IMG/VR virus record: IMGVR_UViG_3300037225_000467
Location: 1-37,053 of that record
DNA: 37,053 bases
From: a virus
Strand: one strand, 5' to 3'
Position numbers and translations under genes: made by a program. The notes beneath the pieces are model-generated. The model had not been told where the DNA came from, made no database searches, and saw only the letters and a list, made by a program, of their open reading frames with translations. How positions within the stretch are numbered: position 1 is the first letter of the stretch; the number at the start of each line of letters is the position of its first letter. Shown piece after piece: positions 16,708 through 36,320 of the stretch.

Positions 16708-17982
16708 ATGGATGCAGATAGTGCAAATAGTGCTTTAAACAAGCGATATAATCCTTGTGATGTTTTCTATGGCTGCTTTATACCGGACTGGTTGATGTGT
16801 CGCGAGGAGGTTTCGGACGGTGCCAAATTATGTTTCGGAAAACTTGCACAATATGCCGGAAAAAATGGATTTTGTTTTCCTTTCCGTTCAACTCTTGCAA
16901 AAAATCTTGGCACTACCGAACGCCAAATTGCCCGTTATTTATCCGATCTTAAAACTCACAAACTCATTGAGGTTGTTCGCACCGGTAGATCAAGCAACTA
17001 TTATTTCTTAAAACACCCTTGGGCAGATGAGAATATTTTAGATAAATCCTCTAATGGTTCCGATGGCAATTCTGGCCAAGGCGTGTCTAATTGTTTGCGC
17101 GATAGGCAAGATGCTGCCTATCCGGTTACGTGTTCCATTCCTGATAGGACAAATACAGCCTATCTCAATGAATCGAAAACGTCCTATCATACCTCCGATA
17201 GGACAAAAATGTCCTATCACACTCCAGATAAACCCAAAATGTCCTATCGTGATAGGCCAAACCCGTCCTATCACGATAGGCAGGATTTGTCCTATCACCA
17301 AAACGGGGGAAACCCAATACCAGAGCCACCGAAACCCCCGATTTTTGCGCCTGAATATATAAATATTAATATTTTAAATAAAAAACAAGATTTAACTACT
17401 GCTAGAGATCTAAGTAAAGTAGAGGGAAAAAAGGAAGCAGCAGAAAAATATTTTGAAATTGAAAAACAAAAAACCGTAAACATCGCACCGCTTAAAAAAA
17501 TTGGATTAACGCAAGAGCATTTACGGCAATTGCTAATGCAAAAAAACCTAACGTTGGAGGATATTCAAAATTCGATTGATTACTTTGCACATGATTTGCA
17601 GCACAATAAAACCAAAAAAATCACGACTACGCCGTTAAATTATTTCATGGGAATACTACGCAAGGGGCAGGCATATTCGCGGCCAATGGGTTATAAATCG
17701 CCGGAAGACGTAATGCGGGAAAAAGAAAACGAAATAAAATCGCTTCAGGAAAAAGCGCGGGAAAAAGAACGGGAGAAAACTGAAAAAAGTGAAAAAAAGA
17801 AAAAACTCGAAATATTCAATACGAAATTTACCGCATGGATGAATTCTCTAACGGGGGCGGAAATACAAACATTACTTCCGCCGGATGTTAAGCATGGAAC
17901 TACTCTGGCTAAATTTTATTTGCGCGATATTTTTATCAAACAATTGGAACGAATAGAAAATGACGCAAAAATTATTCACTAG
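16708..17982 (+). CDS. Replication initiator (phage replisome-organiser type) with internal iterons
   Basis: 424 residues. An N-terminal winged-helix domain (about 20-105) includes SDGAKLCFGKLAQYAGKNGF, FPFRSTLAKNLGTTERQIAR and YLSDLKTHKLIEVVRTGRSS, as in phage replication initiators and plasmid Rep proteins. Residues about 130-200 are a low-complexity stretch with repeats such as SYHTSDRTKMSYHTPDKPKM, encoded by a dense array of GTCCTATC iterons (17101-17296). This places the origin within the initiator gene, as in lambda O. The C-terminal half has a replisome-loader-like helical region and a charged coiled coil (about 335-375). The ATG follows AGGATG about nine bases upstream. It should melt the origin and recruit helicase; no helicase gene is in the window. 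Confidence 0.75.
   Translation: MDADSANSALNKRYNPCDVFYGCFIPDWLMCREEVSDGAKLCFGKLAQYAGKNGFCFPFRSTLAKNLGTTERQIARYLSDLKTHKLIEVVRTGRSSNYYFLKHPWADENILDKSSNGSDGNSGQGVSNCLRDRQDAAYPVTCSIPDRTNTAYLNESKTSYHTSDRTKMSYHTPDKPKMSYRDRPNPSYHDRQDLSYHQNGGNPIPEPPKPPIFAPEYININILNKKQDLTTARDLSKVEGKKEAAEKYFEIEKQKTVNIAPLKKIGLTQEHLRQLLMQKNLTLEDIQNSIDYFAHDLQHNKTKKITTTPLNYFMGILRKGQAYSRPMGYKSPEDVMREKENEIKSLQEKAREKEREKTEKSEKKKKLEIFNTKFTAWMNSLTGAEIQTLLPPDVKHGTTLAKFYLRDIFIKQLERIENDAKIIH
17101..17296. repeat. Iteron array inside the initiator gene, candidate replication origin
   Basis: At least 12 copies of GTCCTATC or its complement, allowing GCCTATC variants, occur in 196 bases. Forward copies lie at 17181, 17211, 17241, 17265 and 17289; reverse copies at 17143, 17197, 17251 and 17275; variants at 17101, 17116 and 17158. 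Spacing between same-orientation units is 24 or 30 bases for much of the array, near whole helical turns. The paired orientations form palindromes. It is the likely binding site for the encoded initiator. Confidence 0.75.
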
Positions 17983-19756: not shown

Positions 19757-20065
19757 TTATTCCTCAGGATCTATATCAAAATTTTCCATTTCCATTATTT
19801 CGTCAAAATTTTCTTGCGAAAATCCTAGATATAATTTCCGCAATTCTTTTAACGTTTTTTCTTCTCTACGGCCACCCCCCAAGCCGCATGGGCTCGTTAA
19901 TTTTTCTTTATCTAACCACGCGTTTAATTTTTCACGATTAGAAAAAACTCTCGTTTCACCAGCGATCGAAAGGCGTCCGGTCTTCGGATTTGGCTCGCCA
20001 GTTGTTGTTGAATGGCCGGAATAATATCGAAAACCGTAATATAATTTTTTAGATTCAGTGTTCAT
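19757..20065 (-). CDS. Partner gene of the first LPD29-like copy
   Basis: 102 residues from the ATG at 20065, with AGGAGG upstream; longer in-frame versions run through the neighbour and are not real. A YYGFRYYSGHSTTTGEPNPK start, then a segment FSNREKLNAWLDKEKLTS of the type found in short proteins that describe 'reading and labelling' small phage domains, and an acidic end. The ATG overlaps the stop of the LPD29-like gene (ATGA). The corresponding position after the second copy holds an unrelated gene. Function unknown. Confidence 0.6.
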   Translation of the reverse strand: MNTESKKLYYGFRYYSGHSTTTGEPNPKTGRLSIAGETRVFSNREKLNAWLDKEKLTSPCGLGGGRREEKTLKELRKLYLGFSQENFDEIMEMENFDIDPEE

Positions 20066-20484
20066 AAAGCCTCCTGCATAATTTGTGATTGTTGCCAAAT
20101 AAATTGATCTAAACATAAATGAAATTTTTCGCGGCATTCTTCATTTGTCCAAACATTATTTTTTTTGCAAATGATTTGCGTCAACTCTTCCTTTTTCTCC
20201 GGAGACCGCGAAAACATTAATTGTACATATTTTGTTTGGGGGATATCGTCCCTTCGGTTATTAATTTCGTATAAATCTTGGCTGCCGTCAAAAGATCCGT
20301 ACTCATATTTATCGATAATCACTTTTACTGCTTTACAAAATGGAAAATCTTTCCAACGGATGTTTACAGAATTTCCCATGCTATAATTTTGATTAGTCAC
20401 TTCAAATTTTGTATTAGGAAAAGCTGATTTCAATTCGGCGCGTATGGCTTTTGCTGCTTTTGCTGATTCTGTTAATGTTCTCAT
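20062..20484 (-). CDS. LPD29-like protein, copy 1
   Basis: 140 residues. AKAIRAELKSAFPNTKFEVT followed by SMGNSVNIRWKDFP, YEYGSFDGSQDLYE and PQTKYVQLMFSR matches my memory of the large-polyvalent-protein-associated domain 29, which occurs in phage and mobile-element proteins of unknown biochemical role. The C-terminal helical region follows. The protein is identical to the copy at 20839-21261. Preceded by AAGGAGAGC. The family assignment is by pattern only. Confidence 0.65.
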   Translation of the reverse strand: MRTLTESAKAAKAIRAELKSAFPNTKFEVTNQNYSMGNSVNIRWKDFPFCKAVKVIIDKYEYGSFDGSQDLYEINNRRDDIPQTKYVQLMFSRSPEKKEELTQIICKKNNVWTNEECREKFHLCLDQFIWQQSQIMQEAL

Positions 20485-20518: not shown

Positions 20519-20842
20519 TTACAATACGCGCACAGACATTGGTTTACCCCAGTCACAAGCTGTGCTCTCGTCCCAATCACCGGCGGCATCATCATCAGAG
20601 TGTGCGGCAATGTAACTATCTAAGATCTCCCATGTTACCAGATAGGTATCATAATATTTGCCATCATCGCGTTGTTGCAGATCGTAGTCGTCGTAGTTAT
20701 CTTGATCTTGTATGTAATCGCTTAACAATACCGCCACTGCCGCATAGCTAACATTGTTTAAATATGCCGCGTCTTGCAATAGTGCATATGCGATACCGTT
20801 ATAGCTAACAATACCGTATTTTGGATTTTTTCTGGTGTTCAT
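20519..20842 (-). CDS. Partner gene of the second LPD29-like copy
   Basis: 107 residues from the ATG at 20842 with AGGAGG upstream. An acidic Asp/Tyr-rich protein (YIQDQDNYDDYDLQQRDDGK) with an N-terminal beta-like segment (YGIVSYNGIAYALLQDAAYL). Not similar to the partner of the first copy beyond the first residues and the shared ribosome site. Coupled to the LPD29-like gene by ATGA. Its strong negative charge could suit a DNA-mimic or inhibitor, which is speculative. Confidence 0.6.
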   Translation of the reverse strand: MNTRKNPKYGIVSYNGIAYALLQDAAYLNNVSYAAVAVLLSDYIQDQDNYDDYDLQQRDDGKYYDTYLVTWEILDSYIAAHSDDDAAGDWDESTACDWGKPMSVRVL

Positions 20843-21261
20843 AATGCCTCCTGCATAATTTGTGATTGTTGCCAAATAAATTGATCTAAACATAAATGAA
20901 ATTTTTCGCGGCATTCTTCATTTGTCCAAACATTATTTTTTTTGCAAATGATTTGCGTCAACTCTTCCTTTTTCTCCGGAGACCGCGAAAACATTAATTG
21001 TACATATTTTGTTTGGGGGATATCGTCCCTTCGGTTATTAATTTCGTATAAATCTTGGCTGCCGTCAAAAGATCCGTACTCATATTTATCGATAATCACT
21101 TTTACTGCTTTACAAAATGGAAAATCTTTCCAACGGATGTTTACAGAATTTCCCATGCTATAATTTTGATTAGTCACTTCAAATTTTGTATTAGGAAAAG
21201 CTGATTTCAATTCGGCGCGTATGGCTTTTGCTGCTTTTGCTGATTCTGTTAATGTTCTCAT
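20839..21261 (-). CDS. LPD29-like protein, copy 2 (first gene of right early operon)
   Basis: 140 residues, identical in sequence to copy 1. It is the first gene after the strong promoter at 21302-21329. The ribosome site is AGGAGACCG. The 418-bp identity stops just inside the differing ribosome sites and partner genes, which suggests a recent duplication of this gene with a different cargo behind it. Confidence 0.65.
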   Translation of the reverse strand: MRTLTESAKAAKAIRAELKSAFPNTKFEVTNQNYSMGNSVNIRWKDFPFCKAVKVIIDKYEYGSFDGSQDLYEINNRRDDIPQTKYVQLMFSRSPEKKEELTQIICKKNNVWTNEECREKFHLCLDQFIWQQSQIMQEAL

Positions 21262-21661: not shown

Positions 21662-22042
21662 TTAGCTCTCCTGTTTTGGTCTGCCCTGCTTTACTTCGAC
21701 AATAGATTCTAATGCGGATAGAAAAACCATATTATTTGATTTGTCTAATAGAATTAAAGCCGCGCGCAAAATTTCTGATTTATTTATCGAGAACTTAAAT
21801 TCTAACGCCCGGTCTTTGCATTTTTTGATCAATAAATAATCATTTTGAGGAAAAGTAAAAGTATCTTTTTTAACGCCCTGCCCCACCCTCTTTTTTTTCA
21901 ATCTAAATTTTTCCTGTGGATTATCTTCAAAAATAGTTTCGGCTTTTTCTAAACGTTCCGCCAGGGTAGTTTGTTTATTAGCAATAGTGTCTCGTTCATT
22001 TGCGAGGCTAGATTTTAATGCGGCACCTAAATTTTTTTTCAT
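21662..22042 (-). CDS. Ribbon-helix-helix partition partner of ParA
   Basis: 126 residues from the ATG at 22042; an in-frame ATG 13 codons earlier at 22081 is also possible and neither has a good ribosome site. The N-terminal half is helical and charged (ALKSSLANERDTIANKQTTL). The C-terminal part contains DTFTFPQNDYLLIKKCKDRA and FSINKSEILRAALILLDKSN, the beta-strand plus two helices of a ribbon-helix-helix fold. It directly follows parA, as centromere-binding ParB/ParR-type partners do. Repeats TTAATAGTTAATA overlap the start, which suggests self-regulation. Confidence 0.7.
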   Translation of the reverse strand: MKKNLGAALKSSLANERDTIANKQTTLAERLEKAETIFEDNPQEKFRLKKKRVGQGVKKDTFTFPQNDYLLIKKCKDRALEFKFSINKSEILRAALILLDKSNNMVFLSALESIVEVKQGRPKQES

Positions 22043-22080
22043 AATAGTATTTATAATATTAATAGTTAATATAGTTTGCA

Positions 22081-22140
22081 TAATTTACTTTTGGTAATTA
22101 AGGAATTTCTTATTTTCCTTTAATTACGAGAAGTAAATTA
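22081..22140. repeat. 60-bp near-perfect palindrome between parA and its partner
   Basis: TAATTTACTT at 22081-22090 is complementary to AAGTAAATTA at 22131-22140, and TAATTAAGGAA pairs with TTCCTTTAATTA around a nine-base centre. The whole intergenic space is a single imperfect dyad. It may be the partition site (centromere), an operator or an RNA hairpin. Confidence 0.7.
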
Positions 22141-22148
22141 TAAATAAT

Positions 22149-22802
22149 TTAATTAGATAAAATAGTTAATACCTCATCTCGCAAGCGCGTTACTTCAAAT
22201 ATAGCTTTTTCCGCATCTTTAAGATCATAAACAGTACCGCCAAAAACCGCTGATTGTCTATAAGCGGTACGCAAATACAAAGTATTTTGTAAGCGAGGGA
22301 TTCCAAAATCATCTAATACATCTAAAGCTTCTTTGTTTAGATTGGTATTTGGTTGGCACATATTAGCAACTAATCGCGCCTGTAATGATTCATTGATATC
22401 TTTGGTTTGTTCTATTAGTTTTTGGATTCCTACGGCGGCCCATAGATCGGCCGGGCTTGGAATAACTGGCACGATAACTAAATCAGAAACTAATAGCGCG
22501 GATTGAGGGGTTGCACTATCAACGGCTGGCGGGCAATCGATTAATATAAAACCATATTGTCCCACGTATTTTTTGATTTCTCGATGTACTTTACTTCCTG
22601 CCGCACTAAGACCTGCTATTGTAGCAGGAAAAGGTTTTGTATCTTCGGCATTAGCTGCCCAACGGGTTGCCGTGCCCTGAGGATCTGCATCAACCACAAG
22701 CACCTTATGGCCGGCAATACCTAACGATCCGGCTAGTTGCATTGTAATAGTAGTTTTACCGCAACCGCCTTTTTGATTGGCGAGCGAAATAATCTTAGTC
22801 AT
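22149..22802 (-). CDS. parA: ParA partition ATPase
   Basis: 217 residues, the small type without an N-terminal HTH. Deviant Walker A KGGCGKTT (residues 11-18), ADPQGTATRW after it, and LIDCPPAVD as Walker B region identify a ParA/MinD-type ATPase. The chain continues with PVIPSPADLWAAVGIQKLIE. It should position plasmid copies on the nucleoid together with the small ribbon-helix-helix partner downstream. The ATG follows AGGAGACC. Repeated AT-rich motifs lie in the 380 bases upstream. Its presence is the main evidence for plasmid-type prophage maintenance. Confidence 0.92.
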   Translation of the reverse strand: MTKIISLANQKGGCGKTTITMQLAGSLGIAGHKVLVVDADPQGTATRWAANAEDTKPFPATIAGLSAAGSKVHREIKKYVGQYGFILIDCPPAVDSATPQSALLVSDLVIVPVIPSPADLWAAVGIQKLIEQTKDINESLQARLVANMCQPNTNLNKEALDVLDDFGIPRLQNTLYLRTAYRQSAVFGGTVYDLKDAEKAIFEVTRLRDEVLTILSN

Positions 22803-22819
22803 TATGGTCTCCTGGATAA

Positions 22820-23180
22820 TGATATTAATAGTTCATAATATATTAACAATATTAATAGTTAATATGATTTGGATGATTACTATAGTTTATAATTGTTTAA
22901 TTGTAAATACTGTTTTTACTATTTGTTGCAAATAGTATTAATAGTAATAACCGTTAATAGATTAATAACAGTATTGTTAGTTTATTCTGTATAAGAATCA
23001 AAGAGTTATCCACAATGTTATTAACAGTATCAATAGTAATAACTATTAATATCGTATTGATTATTGTTGGGTTATTTATCTATATGTATAGTTATGCCAA
23101 TTTTATACCTGATTTATAACTATTTTTGGAATACTATTAATACCGTTAATATGATTAATATTATTAATAGTTAATACGAT
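22820..23180. repeat. AT-rich repeat region with DnaA box, candidate second origin or centromere
   Basis: The gene-free stretch 22803-23180 holds many copies of ATTAATAGT(T/A)A-type units on both strands, for example at 22823, 22850, 22937 and 23160. Two 26-base direct repeats, 22934-22959 and 23026-23051, differ at three positions and flank a perfect DnaA box. More units lie at about 23507-23555 and at 22040-22070. Such an array upstream of parA fits a partition site or replication origin. Confidence 0.65.
23006..23014 (+). promoter_or_regulatory. DnaA box TTATCCACA
   Basis: A perfect consensus DnaA-binding nonamer, placed between two 26-base direct repeats in the AT-rich region ahead of parA. 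Single occurrence noticed here. Confidence 0.7.
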
Positions 23181-23351
23181 TTAATGGAATAACGCGAGAA
23201 GGAAAAATATAACAAGTATCACGGCCGCTATACTAGAAATCATTTTACAGACTTCCCATAAAACATCTGGTTTTTTAAATCCGCAATGTGGACATAACTT
23301 TGCAGAGCTCGACATCTCTTTCTGACATTCTTTACATTTAATCAAAGCCAT
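23181..23351 (-). CDS. Small zinc-ribbon membrane protein
   Basis: A 56-residue frame, ATG at 23351, with GAGGAAAATT upstream. The first half is a zinc ribbon (CKECQKEM then CPHCGF), the second a membrane helix (MISSIAAVILVIFFLLALF). Small ribbon-plus-helix proteins of this kind are common in phages and bacteria; the role is unknown. It lies upstream of parA on the same strand, separated by the repeat region. Confidence 0.7.
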   Translation of the reverse strand: MALIKCKECQKEMSSSAKLCPHCGFKKPDVLWEVCKMISSIAAVILVIFFLLALFH

Positions 23352-23506
23352 AATTTTCCTCGTTTATATTAAGTATAAAAGCTCCCATTTTAACGAAATC
23401 TCTATAATAATCAATATGTTGCAAAAAAACGTGGGATCTTTAGCGTTTTGCCCACCTTATTTATCTATAGCGCCCGCAATCTTCCTCTTTGACTCCCTAT
23501 TAATAG

Positions 23507-23571
23507 TATTAACAGTATGTATGGCATTAATAGTTAAGATAGTTAATATCGTTAATAATTAGTGATATACT
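23507..23571 (+). promoter_or_regulatory. Repeat cluster and possible ferritin promoter
   Basis: Several ATTAATAGT-like units lie in 23507-23555. TTAATA at 23543-23548 and TATACT at 23566-23571 are spaced by 17 bases and face the ferritin gene, so the repeats overlap the promoter. Bases 23352-23506 show nothing recognisable. Confidence 0.4.
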
Positions 23572-23594
23572 ATAAGCCTATCTCTATCCCAGTA

Positions 23595-23611
23595 ATTCGG
23601 AAATTCCGAAT
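23595..23611. promoter_or_regulatory. 17-bp palindrome just ahead of the ferritin ribosome site
   Basis: ATTCGGAA-A-TTCCGAAT is a perfect dyad ten bases ahead of the ferritin start. In RNA it can form a six-pair hairpin with a five-base loop directly before AGGTG. It could be an operator or a translational control hairpin. Confidence 0.6.
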
Positions 23612-23621
23612 AGGTGCCAAT

Positions 23622-24152
23622 ATGCAAACATCAAACGCGTTAACAATTCTTTTAAATAATCAAATAACTGCTGAACTTTTTTCATCCAATCTATATTTAG
23701 GAATGGCCATTCAATTCAAAAAAAATAATTATCTTGGATTTGCTGCTTACATGCTTGATAAAGCAGAAGAGGAGAGGGGACATGCGCTAAGATTTATAGA
23801 CTTTATGGGTAAAGCGAATATTGTTATAACTTTAGAAGAGATTGAATCGCCGGAATCAATGTTAAGCCAAATTAAAACCTGTGTTGATGCTTTTATGGCG
23901 GCCTATTATCATGAAGTAAAGATAACGGGAACAATACACATGCTTATTAAACAAGCAACGTTAGATGGCAATTATCCGGTATTATCTTTTTTGCGAGAGT
24001 TTGTAGATGAGCAAGTAGAGGAAGAAGACGAAGCATTGACAGTATATGAAAAAAGTCAAGGGATTATTTCTGATATTGGTGCTATGCAGGCCATGGATTG
24101 TCATTTTAGTAAAATTTATGGCAACTTGGCCAAAATAAAATTAGAGCTGTAA
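23622..24152 (+). CDS. Ferritin (non-haem, FtnA-like)
   Basis: 176 residues from the ATG at 23622, with AGGTG upstream; a longer frame to 23562 includes the promoter region. Alignment by eye to bacterial ferritin gives all ferroxidase ligands: E18, E51, H54, E98, Q131 and E134. The motifs are TAELFSSNLYL, AEEERGHALRF, YYHEVKIT and DEQVEEEDE. The length is normal for a 24-subunit cage that oxidises and stores iron. An intact ferritin is unusual cargo for a phage or phage-plasmid. It is followed at once by a small metal-binding-type protein and an acetyltransferase in the same unit. It could give the host an advantage under iron or oxidative stress; that is inference. Confidence 0.9.
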   Translation: MQTSNALTILLNNQITAELFSSNLYLGMAIQFKKNNYLGFAAYMLDKAEEERGHALRFIDFMGKANIVITLEEIESPESMLSQIKTCVDAFMAAYYHEVKITGTIHMLIKQATLDGNYPVLSFLREFVDEQVEEEDEALTVYEKSQGIISDIGAMQAMDCHFSKIYGNLAKIKLEL

Positions 24153-25618: not shown

Positions 25619-26930
25619 AACAGGAACGTTTGAAGATTGGCTAAAAACTGTTTCTCCTGATTATAATTGGGATTTGCCATATTTAATCAAAATCCGTGAA
25701 TGCCTTGATAGAATTATTAATGGAGAGAACCTTAAGCTATTGATTATAGCGCCCCCTAGACATGGAAAGAGTTTGCATACCACTATTCATTTTCCTGCAT
25801 TTTTCCTTGAAAAACTTCCTACAAAAAAAGTAATTATTGCAGCATATAATCAAGATTTCTCTAGCGATTTTTCCACGGATATAAGGAGAATCGTAGCATC
25901 AAGAGTAGGAATTGGTGATAAATGCACAATTAAAGCATGGAATACTAAGCAAGGAGGGGGTTTAAGGTCTGTTAGCGTACAGGCTGGAGCAACCGGAAAA
26001 GGAGCGAATCTTTTTATTATTGATGATCCAATTCGCGGTAATGATGATGCAGACAGCCAATTAAAGCGAGACAAAATCTGGAAAACATATTTACGCGATT
26101 TAAGGTCAAGGGTTTTACCTGATGGAACCTCGTTTATTTTAATACAAACCGCATGGCATTATGATGATCTAGCTCACAGAATAATGAATAGTAATGATGC
26201 TGAAAATTGGATTGTTTTAAAATTTCCCGCATTGGCTACCGAAGGGGATATGTTGGGACGCATGCCCGGCCAAGCTCTATGGCCGGAAAAATTCAATGAA
26301 AAATTTTTACTTGACCTAAGAAAAGACGATCCATCGGGTTTTGCGGCCTTATATCAAGGCAGCCCAGAAATAGATGGAGGAAATATTTTCAAACGTGATG
26401 ACTGGCAAAGATATACTTCTTTGCCTGCTTCTTTTGATTATAAATTACAGTCTATTGATACTGCGTGGGAAACAAAAAAACAAAACGATTATTCGGTATG
26501 TACTACATGGGGGGTAAAAGATAGTAATATTTATTTAATCGATCTATGGCGTGAGAAAGTTGAATATCCCGAATTAAAACAACAAATAGAAAATTTATTT
26601 AATTATTACAAACCTAATGTGCAATTAATTGAAAATGAACAATCGGGACGCGGAGCTATTCAAGAGCTTAGACGCAATACAAACATACCCTTAATGGCCA
26701 TTGATCCCAAACAATTTGGCGCCAAAGATGTAAGGGCTAGGGCTTGCGCTATTTTGGTTAGAAATAAAAAAGTTTTTATTCCGGCAAATGTCAATAATGG
26801 ATTTGTATTAGATTTTTTGGACGAAACCGCGGCCTTTCCAAAAGGGAAACATGATGATATAGTGGACACGGTTAGTATGGCATTAAATTACATTATATAT
26901 AATAGCAATGATCCAATCTCAATAATTTAG
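25554..26930 (+). CDS. terL: Terminase large subunit
   Basis: 458 residues from the ATG at 25554; in-frame starts at 25488 and 25590 are possible because the gene overlaps terS and no site is decisive. The ATPase has Walker A APPRHGKS (66-73) and Walker B LFIIDD (153-158). The C-terminal RNase-H-like nuclease shows SIDTAWETKKQNDYS, LIENEQSG and KHDDIVD, with acidic residues for two metals. It packages DNA into the prohead through the portal. The stop codon is already part of the conserved RNA element ahead of portal. Confidence 0.93.
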   Translation: MSSEQQRALAGLMLAERKVQSKTGTFEDWLKTVSPDYNWDLPYLIKIRECLDRIINGENLKLLIIAPPRHGKSLHTTIHFPAFFLEKLPTKKVIIAAYNQDFSSDFSTDIRRIVASRVGIGDKCTIKAWNTKQGGGLRSVSVQAGATGKGANLFIIDDPIRGNDDADSQLKRDKIWKTYLRDLRSRVLPDGTSFILIQTAWHYDDLAHRIMNSNDAENWIVLKFPALATEGDMLGRMPGQALWPEKFNEKFLLDLRKDDPSGFAALYQGSPEIDGGNIFKRDDWQRYTSLPASFDYKLQSIDTAWETKKQNDYSVCTTWGVKDSNIYLIDLWREKVEYPELKQQIENLFNYYKPNVQLIENEQSGRGAIQELRRNTNIPLMAIDPKQFGAKDVRARACAILVRNKKVFIPANVNNGFVLDFLDETAAFPKGKHDDIVDTVSMALNYIIYNSNDPISII

Positions 26931-27022
26931 CGGCGCATACCGCTTGTCATTTATCGGGCTAATCCCGATACTTCAACTGTTTCTACAGTTAAATAAGTCT
27001 ATCTATGGCGATTTTATTTAAC
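26929..27022 (+). ncRNA. Conserved four-stem RNA element, copy A (portal leader)
   Basis: Stems on the + strand: AGCGG/CCGCT (26929-26944), TATCGGG/CCCGATA (26952-26970), AACTGT/ACAGTT (26975-26990), and GTTAAATAA/TTATTTAAC (26988-27022) whose 5' arm overlaps the third stem. The sequence TCTATCTATGGCG lies in the last loop. Most of the bases recur at 34866-34979, upstream of the major capsid gene. It ends a few bases before the portal ribosome site. Confidence 0.75.
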
Positions 27023-27036
27023 AAATAGGAACACGT

Positions 27037-28530
27037 ATGGCCAGTTCAATTTTAGATATCATCACAAAAATACTCCCTTTCAGCTTAGAATATAAAGTAA
27101 ACAATCCAAGTGTTCCAACTGGATTACCGTTATATCCAACCGGCGATAAACCAATATTATTTTCACCAGAAGCAATTTTATTTTGGTTAGAATGCGCCCC
27201 CGTAGCCACGGCAGTAGATAAAATAGCTTTAGAAGTATCGTCAATTAAACCATTAATTTTTGATACGCAAACTGAAAAATATATTGATAATCATCCGATT
27301 TTTGATTTGCTAGAAAAGCCCGACGCCGATATAACATATAAAGAATTCATACATAGCATAATTACTTTTTATTTAATCACTGGAAATGTTTTTTTACGTG
27401 CGATAGGGCACATAGATAACCCACCAAAAACACTTCGTGTTGTGCCGTCGCAAGGTGTAACTATTGTTGCAGATTTTGATGGATATGCGCGCAATATAAC
27501 TACTAGGATTTTGGCATTAATTGATTTATTCAATCGTGTAGAGGTGAAAGAACAGAATCAAGTTAGGCATAGATATTATGCTAACGATTTTAAAGAATGT
27601 TATCACATTCGTACGTTCAACCCTTATATTGGTTCCAATATGGTCTATGGGGTAAGCCCGCTTAACCATGTCTTTTACGAAATGAAACAATACGTTGATA
27701 GCTCAAAACATAATCTCTCAACCCTTCAGCGTGGCACTAGATTTAGCGGTATTTTTTCTATTAAAAATAGAATGCTGCCGAAAGAACAGCGACAAAGAAT
27801 GGAAGAACAAATCAATGTTGCTATGGGTGGTTCTAATAATGCCGGTCGCACTATGCTTATTGATGACGACGTCCAATTCCAAGATCTAATCAAAAATATT
27901 CGTGATATGGATTATGCGGTTATGAAACAACAAGTAACAACAGCTATTTATAATGCACTTAAAATTCCATTGCCGCTAATCAATCCTGAACATATGACTT
28001 TGGCAAACATGGATGCTGCAAAATTGCTACTCTATGATAATGCCGTTTTGCCTATTACCAATAGAATTTTTGAAGAATTAACTAATTTTCTAATGCCGCG
28101 ATATGGCGATAAAGAAGGGCGGTACATATTGACTTATCGGCAAGATGATATACCAGCATTATTGCCACGCAAAAACGAACAAATACAAATTCAGCAAAAA
28201 AGTCAAATGTTCACGATTAATGAATTACGTAATGAATACGGCGCCGACCCGATTGATGGCGGTAATAATCTTTATGGTAATGCGACACTTGTTCCGATCG
28301 CCGAGGATTCATCGGGAACGTATAAGGTTGATGATTTAGAAAAAGACGATGTCAATACCGAAAATGTACCACGTGGAACAACTGAAGATGAGGAAGCGGA
28401 CAAAGAAGCTATTGCGGTCACAAAAGAAAAGTTTGTAACGGTTTTAGCTCAGCAAAAAGATACTGACGGAACCCGCAGATTTACCGATGACGACATAAAA
28501 GAAATGGCTGGAAGGCATTATGGCGATTGA
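27037..28530 (+). CDS. Portal protein, HK97 gp3-like
   Basis: 497 residues. The order of conserved segments is that of siphovirus-type portals: ATAVDKIALEVSSIKPLIFD near the start, HPIFDLLEKPDADIT, then a fold with LITGNVFLRAIG, the central VYGVSPL (membrane-facing wing region) and a helical stem (MEEQINVAMGGSNNAGRT). The C-terminal part is acidic. It forms the dodecameric ring for DNA entry. The ATG has a TAGGAAC site and stands 15 bases after the conserved RNA element. It overlaps the MuF gene by 11 bases. Confidence 0.9.
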   Translation: MASSILDIITKILPFSLEYKVNNPSVPTGLPLYPTGDKPILFSPEAILFWLECAPVATAVDKIALEVSSIKPLIFDTQTEKYIDNHPIFDLLEKPDADITYKEFIHSIITFYLITGNVFLRAIGHIDNPPKTLRVVPSQGVTIVADFDGYARNITTRILALIDLFNRVEVKEQNQVRHRYYANDFKECYHIRTFNPYIGSNMVYGVSPLNHVFYEMKQYVDSSKHNLSTLQRGTRFSGIFSIKNRMLPKEQRQRMEEQINVAMGGSNNAGRTMLIDDDVQFQDLIKNIRDMDYAVMKQQVTTAIYNALKIPLPLINPEHMTLANMDAAKLLLYDNAVLPITNRIFEELTNFLMPRYGDKEGRYILTYRQDDIPALLPRKNEQIQIQQKSQMFTINELRNEYGADPIDGGNNLYGNATLVPIAEDSSGTYKVDDLEKDDVNTENVPRGTTEDEEADKEAIAVTKEKFVTVLAQQKDTDGTRRFTDDDIKEMAGRHYGD

Positions 28531-33459: not shown

Positions 33460-33559
33460 AGTTTAATTTCTCCAGTCGATTGGCCTCCTAATTTTCAATT
33501 ATATATTACATTTTTTTGATTATTTAGCAATTAATATTGTGCTTTATCGTATGTCAGCA

Positions 33560-33587
33560 TTGTTTTAAGGTGGTCATAGTATATAGC
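33560..33587 (+). promoter_or_regulatory. Possible promoter for the protease/capsid genes
   Basis: TTGTTT (33560-33565) and TATAGC (33582-33587) with a 16-base spacer, facing the protease gene in the AT-rich divergent region 33460-33695. Nothing else is recognised there. Confidence 0.35.
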
Positions 33588-33695
33588 TGTTAATGTTAAT
33601 TATAGATATATTTTTGTATCTTTTGTGTAGTAAGCAATGTATTTTAGTGATAACATTCAAAATATTATTAATCCCTAGTGAAATGGGAAAATTAT

Positions 33696-34856
33696 ATGCC
33701 GTTTAAACACGAACATTCCGCAAGAATTTCTGATCCCAGTAAATATACAAAATTCCGCCGTAAGAATGATGAATTTGGGGCGGGAATTGATGTTATTTAT
33801 GGGGTGACTAAAGCCGGCAAAGCTGAAGTGCAGGCCATTCATTTTGATGCAGATAAATTCACTACTGAAGACGCTAAAAAATGGTTAAAAGATCATGATT
33901 ATAAGCCTACTGAATTTGTTGCGGCCACAGGTGATAAAGGCGAAGAAGATGAAAAATACTGGGACGATGAAGACGAGAGCGATGAAGACGAAGAAGAAGA
34001 GGAAGACGATGACGACGAAGAGGAAATGAGTAAGGCCAAGCTTAATGTTGAAATAGAACATAAGAATTTATCTTTTAAAATCATAGAAATAAAAGAAGCG
34101 ACTATCAAGGGTGTTAAAACCGGCATCATAGAAGGCTATGCGGCCACTTACGGTGATATAGACCGTGGGGGCGATGTTATTTTGCAAGGCGCTTTTAAAG
34201 AATGCCTAGCCAAATATTTGGCTGAAGGCCGCCCCGTCAAAATGCATTATCAACATTCTACTATGGACATCATCGGTCATTTCCCGGTAGAAAAAATTAT
34301 TGATGATGAAAAGGGCTTATATTGTCGCGGCGAAATTAATTTAGAAGTACAACGCGGACGTGAAGTTTATGCGTTGGCCAAACAAGGCGCGATAAGCGAT
34401 CTGTCAATTGGATATAGTGTTGATGATTTTGATTATATTAAAAATCCATCGACTAATGCGGTACCAATTCGGCAATTGAAAAAATTGACATTATGGGAAA
34501 TTTCAACAGTAGGCGAACCAATGAATCCTAATGCGAAAATTACCGAAGTTAAAATGTCTGTAAAGGATGTTACGCAATTAGTGGGCGCTGAAAAGATTAC
34601 TAAAAAATCGCAGCTCGCACGCATTCTGAGAAAGAGCAAAGGTTTCACAAAGCGTGCAGCAGAATACTTGGTCAATTTAATTTGTTTAGAAAATAAAGAA
34701 TTCAATCTTGATGTTAACATTAAAACTAATATTGATAATTCTTTAATAGATAATTTACAAGCTCTTCATAATGATTTGAAAAAATCTATAGTTCAAAAAG
34801 AACAAGATAAGATCATTAAAGACTTGCAAAACATTAAAGATATTTTCAAAAAGTAA
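33696..34856 (+). CDS. Prohead protease with extra N-terminal domain
   Basis: 386 residues from the ATG at 33696; a GTG six codons earlier is possible. Residues 1-75 form a separate domain (IDVIYGVTKAGKAEVQAIHF, KKWLKDHDYKPTEF) found at the start of some phage proteases. A very acidic linker (81-110) follows, then the S78 HK97 gp4-type protease (about 118-270): H187 in QHST and S237 in SDLSIGY are the catalytic candidates. The C-terminal 100 residues are helical and may act as scaffold. It cleaves the capsid delta domain and itself during head maturation. Its 3' end is just ahead of the second RNA element. Confidence 0.88.
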   Translation: MPFKHEHSARISDPSKYTKFRRKNDEFGAGIDVIYGVTKAGKAEVQAIHFDADKFTTEDAKKWLKDHDYKPTEFVAATGDKGEEDEKYWDDEDESDEDEEEEEDDDDEEEMSKAKLNVEIEHKNLSFKIIEIKEATIKGVKTGIIEGYAATYGDIDRGGDVILQGAFKECLAKYLAEGRPVKMHYQHSTMDIIGHFPVEKIIDDEKGLYCRGEINLEVQRGREVYALAKQGAISDLSIGYSVDDFDYIKNPSTNAVPIRQLKKLTLWEISTVGEPMNPNAKITEVKMSVKDVTQLVGAEKITKKSQLARILRKSKGFTKRAAEYLVNLICLENKEFNLDVNIKTNIDNSLIDNLQALHNDLKKSIVQKEQDKIIKDLQNIKDIFKK

Positions 34857-34865
34857 GATCACCTT

Positions 34866-34979
34866 AGCGGTGTATACCGCTTGTCACTTATCGGGTTAGC
34901 TCGATATCTCAACTGTTTCTCACAGTTAAATAAGTCTATCTACGGCGTATGCATTTGTTTTGCATATATTTTATTTAAC
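34866..34979 (+). ncRNA. Conserved four-stem RNA element, copy B (major capsid leader)
   Basis: Stems: AGCGGT/ACCGCT (34866-34881), TATCGGG/CTCGATA with a G:U pair (34889-34906), AACTGT/ACAGTT (34911-34927), and GTTAAATAA/TTATTTAAC (34925-34979). The last loop has GTCTATCTACGGCG and an added hairpin TATGCA/TGCATA (34948-34966). It matches copy A over most of its length, and base changes keep the stems. It ends seven bases before the capsid ribosome site. Confidence 0.75.
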
Positions 34980-34997
34980 AAAAATGAGGTTATTAAA

Positions 34998-36320
34998 ATG
35001 ACTGACGTTCAAATTGTTACTTCACCAAATCCGAATGTGGAGTTGGGAGTATTAGTAAAAGATATTCGCGAATCAATGGCGAAAATGGAAAAAGAGAAAA
35101 TTACCTACGGAGAATTAGAAACTAAAATTGACAAAATGGAAAAAGATTTAAATTCAGCGCATGGAAAAGTATCAGAATTAGAAACCAAAACTGCTAAACA
35201 AGAAAAGATTATTGATTCGTTGGAAAGAGCGCAGGGTTCTAAACAGGTTATTGCCACCGCTGGTATTCCAGCTTTAAATCCTGAATTGCAATCGGTTTAT
35301 GAAAAAGCTTTTGCTACAAGAAATCTTAAGATGGCACTTAATACCGATGATACGATGAAAAAGTATTATGCTATGACTGAAGGCGATGGCTCAGTAACTA
35401 TTCCAAAAATCAATAAGATAAGCGGGCAGTATGAACAAAGAGATTTGAAATATGTCCGCTCTGATGTTGCAGATGCCGGTGGTTTGTTAGTTCCTCCTGA
35501 ATTCATGCCGGAATTAATTCGTAACTTAACTGAAATAAGCCCGGTTAGAAAATACGCGCGCGCAATGACAACGTATTCTAATATTTTGCAATTACCATTG
35601 CGTAATGTGCTTTTAACTTCTTCATGGGGATATGAAGGTCAAGACCCTTTAAATAAGAGCCAATCACAATATAACCGTCCAGAAATTCACATGAAACGTC
35701 TTTCTGTAAGCGTTCCGATTACTATCGAAGAATTGATGGATAGTCCTATTGATATGCAAGCTGAAATTGCAAACGATGTAAACGAAGAGTTTGCGCAGCG
35801 CGAAGGTTATGGCTTTATCAAAGGCAACGGCACTAATCAGGTTGAAGGTTTGATGTCAGATACGACCGGCATTTCATCTATTAATAGCGGAAGTGGAACA
35901 AACGTTACTGCTGATGCAATTCTGCAAATGTTCGGTGAAATCAAATGGGAAAGTTATGGAAACCAAAACTACGACCGTATTTATACTTTTAATCGTCGTA
36001 CTTGGATCAAAATTTTACAATTGAAAGATGGTGTTGGCCGTTATATTTGGGCGCAAGGCAATATTGCTGCTGGTATTCCTAATTCAGTTTTGGGTGCTCA
36101 ATATTTTATATCTCCAGATATGGATGATATTTCTGCCGGAACTTACCCGATTTTAATGGGCGACTTCAAACAAGGCTATGTAGTTGCAGACCGTATGTTG
36201 ATGTACATGGTTCGCGATGAAGTAACCAAACCTGGCTATATTATTTTTACATTCATTCGTCGCTTAGGCGCAATGGTTGTCAAAAAAGAAGCCTTTGTAA
36301 AAATGAAAGTTTCTGCTTAA
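34998..36320 (+). CDS. Major capsid protein, HK97 gp5-like
   Basis: 440 residues from the ATG at 34998, with TGAGGTT upstream; the longer frame back to 34881 is the RNA element. Residues 15-85 are a coiled-coil delta (scaffold) domain removed by the protease. The mature HK97 fold follows: DAGGLLVPPEFMPELIRNLT, RAMTTYSNILQLPLRNVL, SVSVPITIEELMDSPIDMQA and the closing IIFTFIRRLGAMVVKKEAF. The length is typical. It should be one of the most expressed late genes, in keeping with the special leader ahead of it. Confidence 0.93.
   Translation: MTDVQIVTSPNPNVELGVLVKDIRESMAKMEKEKITYGELETKIDKMEKDLNSAHGKVSELETKTAKQEKIIDSLERAQGSKQVIATAGIPALNPELQSVYEKAFATRNLKMALNTDDTMKKYYAMTEGDGSVTIPKINKISGQYEQRDLKYVRSDVADAGGLLVPPEFMPELIRNLTEISPVRKYARAMTTYSNILQLPLRNVLLTSSWGYEGQDPLNKSQSQYNRPEIHMKRLSVSVPITIEELMDSPIDMQAEIANDVNEEFAQREGYGFIKGNGTNQVEGLMSDTTGISSINSGSGTNVTADAILQMFGEIKWESYGNQNYDRIYTFNRRTWIKILQLKDGVGRYIWAQGNIAAGIPNSVLGAQYFISPDMDDISAGTYPILMGDFKQGYVVADRMLMYMVRDEVTKPGYIIFTFIRRLGAMVVKKEAFVKMKVSA

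Follow-up and report, generated by a model that had tools for sequence, protein, structure and literature searches.

The stretch of DNA analyzed here (the window) is IMG/VR record IMGVR_UViG_3300037225_000467, 37,053 bases from a tailed-phage virus, and it is apparently a fragment, as its left end cuts through an open reading frame. Two leaders in the window are considered. Copy A is flanked by the stop codon of the terminase large-subunit gene (26930) and the portal ATG (27037), and copy B by the stop codon of an S78 prohead protease gene (34856) and the ATG at 34998 of the gene for an HK97-type major capsid protein (MCP; Table 1). A first-pass annotation made from the sequence alone had described both leaders as gene-free. 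The neighboring genes are indeed placed as it reported, but the first bases of stem-loop P1 of copy A are inside the terminase stop codon.

The two copies are 85% identical across a 62-nt core. The 37-kb window contains a 20-nt block (AAATAAGTCTATCTAYGGCG) exactly two times, against 0.01 occurrences expected by chance (up to 3 mismatches). A MAFFT alignment of copies A and B contains long conserved blocks and one hairpin found only in copy B, which the annotation had already noticed. The RNA fold z-scores of the copies are -3.2 and -3.3, and both strands fold better than shuffles. Thus, the proposal of two similar leaders at these positions is confirmed. As likewise claimed, CCCGATA in copy A and CTCGATA in copy B give a G-C and a G-U pair, respectively, in P2. 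The accompanying statement that differences fall in loops or leave pairing intact holds for this wobble; we add that differences are also present in the P1 and P3 loops.

Table 1. Coordinates of the leader copies, their predicted RNA features and the adjacent genes (window coordinates unless L004 is given)
Feature	Position	Strand	Basis or remark
Leader A, before portal gene	26929-27022
Copy A stem-loop P1, AGCGG-CGCAUA-CCGCU	26929-26944	+	sequence, covariation; overlaps terminase stop codon at start
Copy A conserved junction, UGUCAUU	26945-26951	+	invariant columns; UUGKCAYU in 6/6 copies
Copy A stem-loop P2, UAUCGGG-CUAAU-CCCGAUA	26952-26970	+	covariation
Copy A local hairpin P3, AACUG-UUUCUA-CAGUU	26975-26990	+	SD-free alternative; stem invariant in 6/6 copies
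Copy A long alternative stem (P4 and P5)	26978-27033	+	MFE and centroid
Copy A P5, UGUUUCUA pairing with UAGGAACA	26978-26985 with 27026-27033		3' strand includes SD
Copy A P4, GUUAAAUAA pairing with UUAUUUAAC	26988-26996 with 27014-27022
Portal gene SD (AGGAA) and start codon	27026-27039	+
Portal protein gene, 3' of copy A	27037-28530	+	PF04860
Leader B, before MCP gene	34866-34979
Copy B stem-loop P1, AGCGGU-GUAU-ACCGCU	34866-34881	+
Copy B conserved junction, UGUCACU	34882-34888	+
Copy B stem-loop P2, UAUCGGG-UUAG-CUCGAUA	34889-34906	+	one G-U pair
Copy B local hairpin P3, AACUG-UUUCUCA-CAGUU	34911-34927	+
Copy B alternative stem	34918-34989	+	weak; energy nearly equal to P3 state
Copy B alternative stem, UCUCA pairing with UGAGG	34918-34922 with 34985-34989		3' strand is SD
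Copy B P4	34925-34933 with 34971-34979
Copy B extra hairpin, UAUGCAU...GCAUAUA	34948-34968	+	apical part of P4
MCP gene, 3' of copy B	34998-36320	+	PF05065
L004 copy before portal gene	from 4185
L004 copy before protease gene	from 8599
L004 copy before MCP gene	from 9888
L004 copy before tail-sheath gene	from 15166		sheath identity by phrog_165

Because two copies alone cannot show covariation, homologues were needed. Searches with the MCP and portal proteins identified IMGVR_UViG_3300012931_000066 (L004) as the one close relative (MCP 74%, portal 69-70% and terminase 51-52% identical), the remaining matches being distant fragments. The 27-kb L004 contig carries four copies, all in sense orientation. 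Among themselves these are 60-82% identical with pairing kept, and copies A and B resemble each other more than either resembles any L004 copy. In both phages, all six copies are in sense orientation within the late head-tail region, each in the interval that separates the end of one gene from the start of a virion gene, and none occurs elsewhere in either contig.

Covariation was examined across this set of six copies from two phages. In P1 and P2, 93.5% of the cells are paired, and both partners have changed in seven pairs (14 cells). No shuffle out of 500 did as well, and the structure exceeds all six slid controls. RNAalifold recovered the same three stems unaided from the MAFFT alignment. 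Among the P2 variants, one pair occurs as C-G or U-A and another as G-C, A-U, C-G or U-G. Conservation is highest in the UUGKCAYU junction that links P1 to P2 and in the strand UCAACUG, whereas stem sequences and loops vary. Wobble pairs, namely the G-U pair in P2 of copy B and others in other copies, best fit the sense strand, with the exception of one site in P1 of copy A that fits the antisense strand better. A conserved junction flanked by varying stems is what a folded recognition core, not a DNA operator, would be expected to show, and the sequence comparison supports a structured RNA under selection. The earlier view that a selected RNA without a name precedes head genes is thus upheld, by covariation in a homologous phage, by the same gene context extended to protease and tail sheath and by the lack of an Rfam match.

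The strands UCAACUG and CAGUU, which contain the two arms of P3 (AACUG/CAGUU), are unchanged in all six copies. Covariation therefore neither supports nor refutes P3. The invariance of AACUG, which several models of the long stem described below leave bulged or unpaired, is best explained by P3. The annotation had counted four preserved stems. Covariation bears this out for P1 and P2; for the remainder the description needs revision, since the invariant P3 competes with a longer predicted pairing, P4/P5, that engages the ribosome-binding region.

This alternative stem is a model-based feature newly found here, beyond the two leaders first noticed. When the 3' half alone (UCAACUG to AUG) is folded, the MFE structure of all six copies is one long irregular hairpin ending near or over the Shine-Dalgarno sequence (SD), with z-scores of -3.5, -1.9, -4.9, -2.0, -3.9 and -5.6. 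In full-length folds of copies A, C and E the SD region is in a long stem with the UCAACUG...CAGUUAA strand, and in copy F the long stem has up to about 20 pairs. Coverage of the SD by the predicted P4/P5 is clear for copies A, C, E and F but weak or partial for B and D; in copy D the alternative stem leaves the SD uncovered in the full fold. P3 and P4/P5 share bases and are mutually exclusive in the prediction. For A, C, E and F, the state that excludes P3 is the more stable one, with an energy 4 to 12.5 kcal/mol below that of the P3 state; for B and D, it is the less stable, by about 1 kcal/mol.

The specificity of this pairing was addressed by permuting 5' and 3' halves among the six copies, a comparison of related sequences that was devised after the folds had been seen. 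Matched halves ranked 1-10 of 720 permutations over 24 segment choices, 1-8 of 120 after removal of any single copy, 2-4 of 720 by cofold and 1-4 of 48 when swaps stayed within a genome. SD accessibility was lower in the six copies than in 67 control open reading frames (Mann-Whitney p=0.003). Over the set of six, these results suggest that a predicted P4/P5 stem specific to each copy pairs with the initiation region, weakly so in B and D.

With filters off, the covariance model R1 found only copies A and B in the window (70-74 bits, everything else scoring at most 10.2 bits); true copies overall score 63-76 bits. A search of this kind had been suggested together with the initial description. 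In viral_contigs, the core pattern matched only the L004 contig, apart from one chance match (L009) that was discarded because it is inside a gene on the opposite strand. A looser pattern matched at least 119 stretches of viral_contigs, and outside the L004 contig all of these scored below 22 bits with R1. There was no match to the exact core pattern in genome_contigs (GTDB genomes), and none by blastn against the 50,697 phage records of INPHARED. At Rfam gathering thresholds, the window yielded only a tRNA and the relatives yielded nothing; relaxed Rfam scans of the window copies gave matches far below threshold. Given this absence from Rfam, from INPHARED, from GTDB genomes (exact core pattern) and from the rest of IMG/VR searched, the family is, on present data, real but narrow and known from two phages. 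In the open-access literature we found no description of structured RNAs ahead of phage capsid or portal genes; within that literature and the databases searched, the folded element is previously undescribed. The window phage, unlike L004, has no copy (window 33460-33696) before its own protease gene. The element is thus not obligatory there, and the window gene that follows the minus-strand cassette without a copy must be expressed in another way.

From the structure and genomic context, which are well supported, we infer the function. Each copy takes up the space that precedes a single virion gene or a block of them. The shared strand would alternate between the short P3, with the SD free and translation on, and the long P4/P5, with the SD hidden and translation off. 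Since P3 is without covariation, it is the on-state in particular that we infer. P1, the junction, P2 and P3 may constitute a sensor, and one of the two states would be stabilized in trans, most probably by an RNA-binding protein of the phage or its host. Translation of portal, protease, capsid and sheath could thereby be timed or coordinated. We judge it about an even chance that these are bistable cis-acting translational control elements of late mRNA, in which a sensor, an SD-sequestering stem and a trans factor coordinate virion translation. Among the functions offered by the first-pass annotation (autoregulatory protein binding, processing and translational enhancement), translational control fits best.

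Copies precede portal, protease (after a minus-strand cassette), capsid and sheath, so a shared response would set the timing and proportions of virion proteins. It is conceivable, though in our view rather doubtful, that the copies form a riboswitch-like regulon: one factor of phage or host origin would open the ribosome-binding sites of all these virion genes in concert, so that timing and proportions are set at translation. The prevailing view is that tailed phages time their late virion genes chiefly through transcription. If the proposal is true, a tailed phage coordinates its virion proteins at translation, by means of a compact multi-gene translational switch. The window phage and L004 have in common structural genes, terminase, a ferritin-like protein and an HTH_17 protein, the last two being the clearest common ones outside virion and packaging genes; no regulator is apparent among the common genes. 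The ferritin-like protein gene is upstream of the terminase genes in both phages (window 23562-24152; L004 777-1268).

Translational riboswitches and ribosomal-protein leaders combine a conserved sensor with alternative helices that exclude each other, the SD being hidden in one of them. The element may be alike in its putative sensor and its predicted exclusive helices, but it has no Rfam match and is present in multiple copies before phage virion genes. T7 RNase III intercistronic sites are repeated structured RNAs that share shape rather than a junction sequence, and in lambda cIII alternative structures set SD access for a single early gene. The element resembles the former as a repeated intercistronic RNA and the latter in its predicted alternative structures, which would set SD access. 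In its proposed action, it is most like SD-sequestering leader elements. Translational operators of the T4 type (gene 32 pseudoknot, gene 43 hairpin and RegA sites) are likewise leader RNAs at phage initiation regions. However, these overlap or directly precede the SD or AUG, and RegA sites are without structure, whereas here a 60-nt folded module lies upstream of a separate stem predicted to hide the SD and the genes that follow encode virion proteins. RegA serves about 30 mRNAs (PMC3014915), and by analogy the element may resemble the RegA regulon of T4 in scope, with one factor acting on many genes.

The main rival to translational switching is an intercistronic RNA-processing site, for example for RNase III within P4/P5, where cleavage would cut the late mRNA, stabilize the new ends and perhaps free the downstream SD. 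The position of each copy in a late-region intergenic gap and the RNase III-like size of the long irregular stem, up to about 20 pairs in copy F, agree with this reading. RNase III substrates, however, need neither the invariant junction nor the covarying P1 and P2, and the stem is weak in B and D. We consider processing unlikely as the main role, although it could act together with SD occlusion and may belong to the same mechanism. A put- or nut-type transcription signal, in which the emerging transcript would prevent termination by binding RNA polymerase or a phage factor, is quite unlikely. HK022 put is an RNA of about 70 nt with two stem-loops, present as two sequence-related copies in one phage (PMC9378689). 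The element is about that size, has two main stem-loops and occurs in several related copies per phage, and read-through could matter in a late region interrupted by a minus-strand cassette. But put follows early promoters, where it acts on RNA polymerase over at least 10 kb, and a signal with that reach would not have to stand immediately ahead of every one of several late genes. In the present phages, late genes are preceded by up to four copies that are complementary to the initiation region, and this copy-specific complementarity would be left unexplained. By location, with all copies in the late head-tail region and not after early promoters, the element is not put RNA.

Read as DNA, the element might be a late promoter or operator, with TTGTCA similar to a -35 box and GATAYT to a -10 box, and copy A contains the match TTGTCA-17-GATACT (26944-26972). 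No such match was reported for copy B, though, the match count is near the shuffled mean and the equivalent spacing varies from 14 to 18 across copies. A DNA operator would have no need of the complementarity that the arms retain as their sequences change, and the wobble pairs favor the sense strand; we regard this explanation as very unlikely. A self-cleaving ribozyme or other structured RNA, with the junction as a catalytic or small-ligand core, would account by analogy for invariant junction nucleotides amid freely varying stems. There is no match to an Rfam ribozyme or riboswitch (window copies at relaxed thresholds, relatives at gathering thresholds) and no known catalytic core was seen, which makes it highly improbable. 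We give scarcely any credence to a mobile or recently duplicated DNA repeat without a role in expression. The 85% identity of A and B, higher than to any L004 copy, fits such a repeat, but it is disfavored by covariation, and the L004 copies have diverged with pairing kept. Moreover, all six copies precede virion genes, no copy was found away from such genes and no terminal features of mobile elements were seen. Absence of covariation in homologues and copies without neighboring head genes had been named in advance as refuting observations; neither was observed.

Several further readings were considered and dropped. By inspection, a pseudoknot between UUGUC and the P4 loop is possible in A and F only and thus inconsistent across copies, and leader reading frames are not conserved, which disfavors an upstream open reading frame. 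The junction UUGKCAYU can pair with the start-codon region over 7 bp in E and F, but this pairing is essentially absent in D, ranks 36 of 720 overall and is a hint only. A general anti-SD role for the P3 loop fits no copies beyond those of the window, the boxA-like UUUAACA that ends copies A and B is not kept in the L004 copies, and an intrinsic terminator has one weak match in A and none in B.

A different possible shared leader (TAGCNTCA...GYGACGYTG) was seen before portal and MCP genes of the cousins L015 (4015-4075), L016 (4215-4275) and L003 (625-710). The similarity of the cousin MCP leader is near chance, and folding gives no clear support for SD occlusion in these three leaders.

Other features of the window may be of separate interest. 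A ParA-like partition ATPase (phrog_164, PF13614; 22149-22802) is accompanied by many ATTAATAGTTAA-type repeats (22029-23558), which together look like a partition locus with a centromere array; on account of this apparent locus, the virus is a possible phage-plasmid. Within a lambda-O/DnaD-like replication initiator gene, five tandem iteron-like repeats (GATAGG...CCTATC; 17142-17298) are likely a replication origin. An exact 300-nt duplication (20058-20357 and 20835-21134), with copies 777 nt apart, is within minus-strand genes. An RNA ligase gene (PF09414; 9104-9727) belongs to the same minus-strand block as Band_7 and PLD-like proteins. Finally, the gene-free segment 3655-3720 contains a long inverted repeat, CTCTATGCGGCC...GGCCGCATAGAG, with GGTCTCCTAAACCC in its loop, and is a candidate small RNA or terminator.
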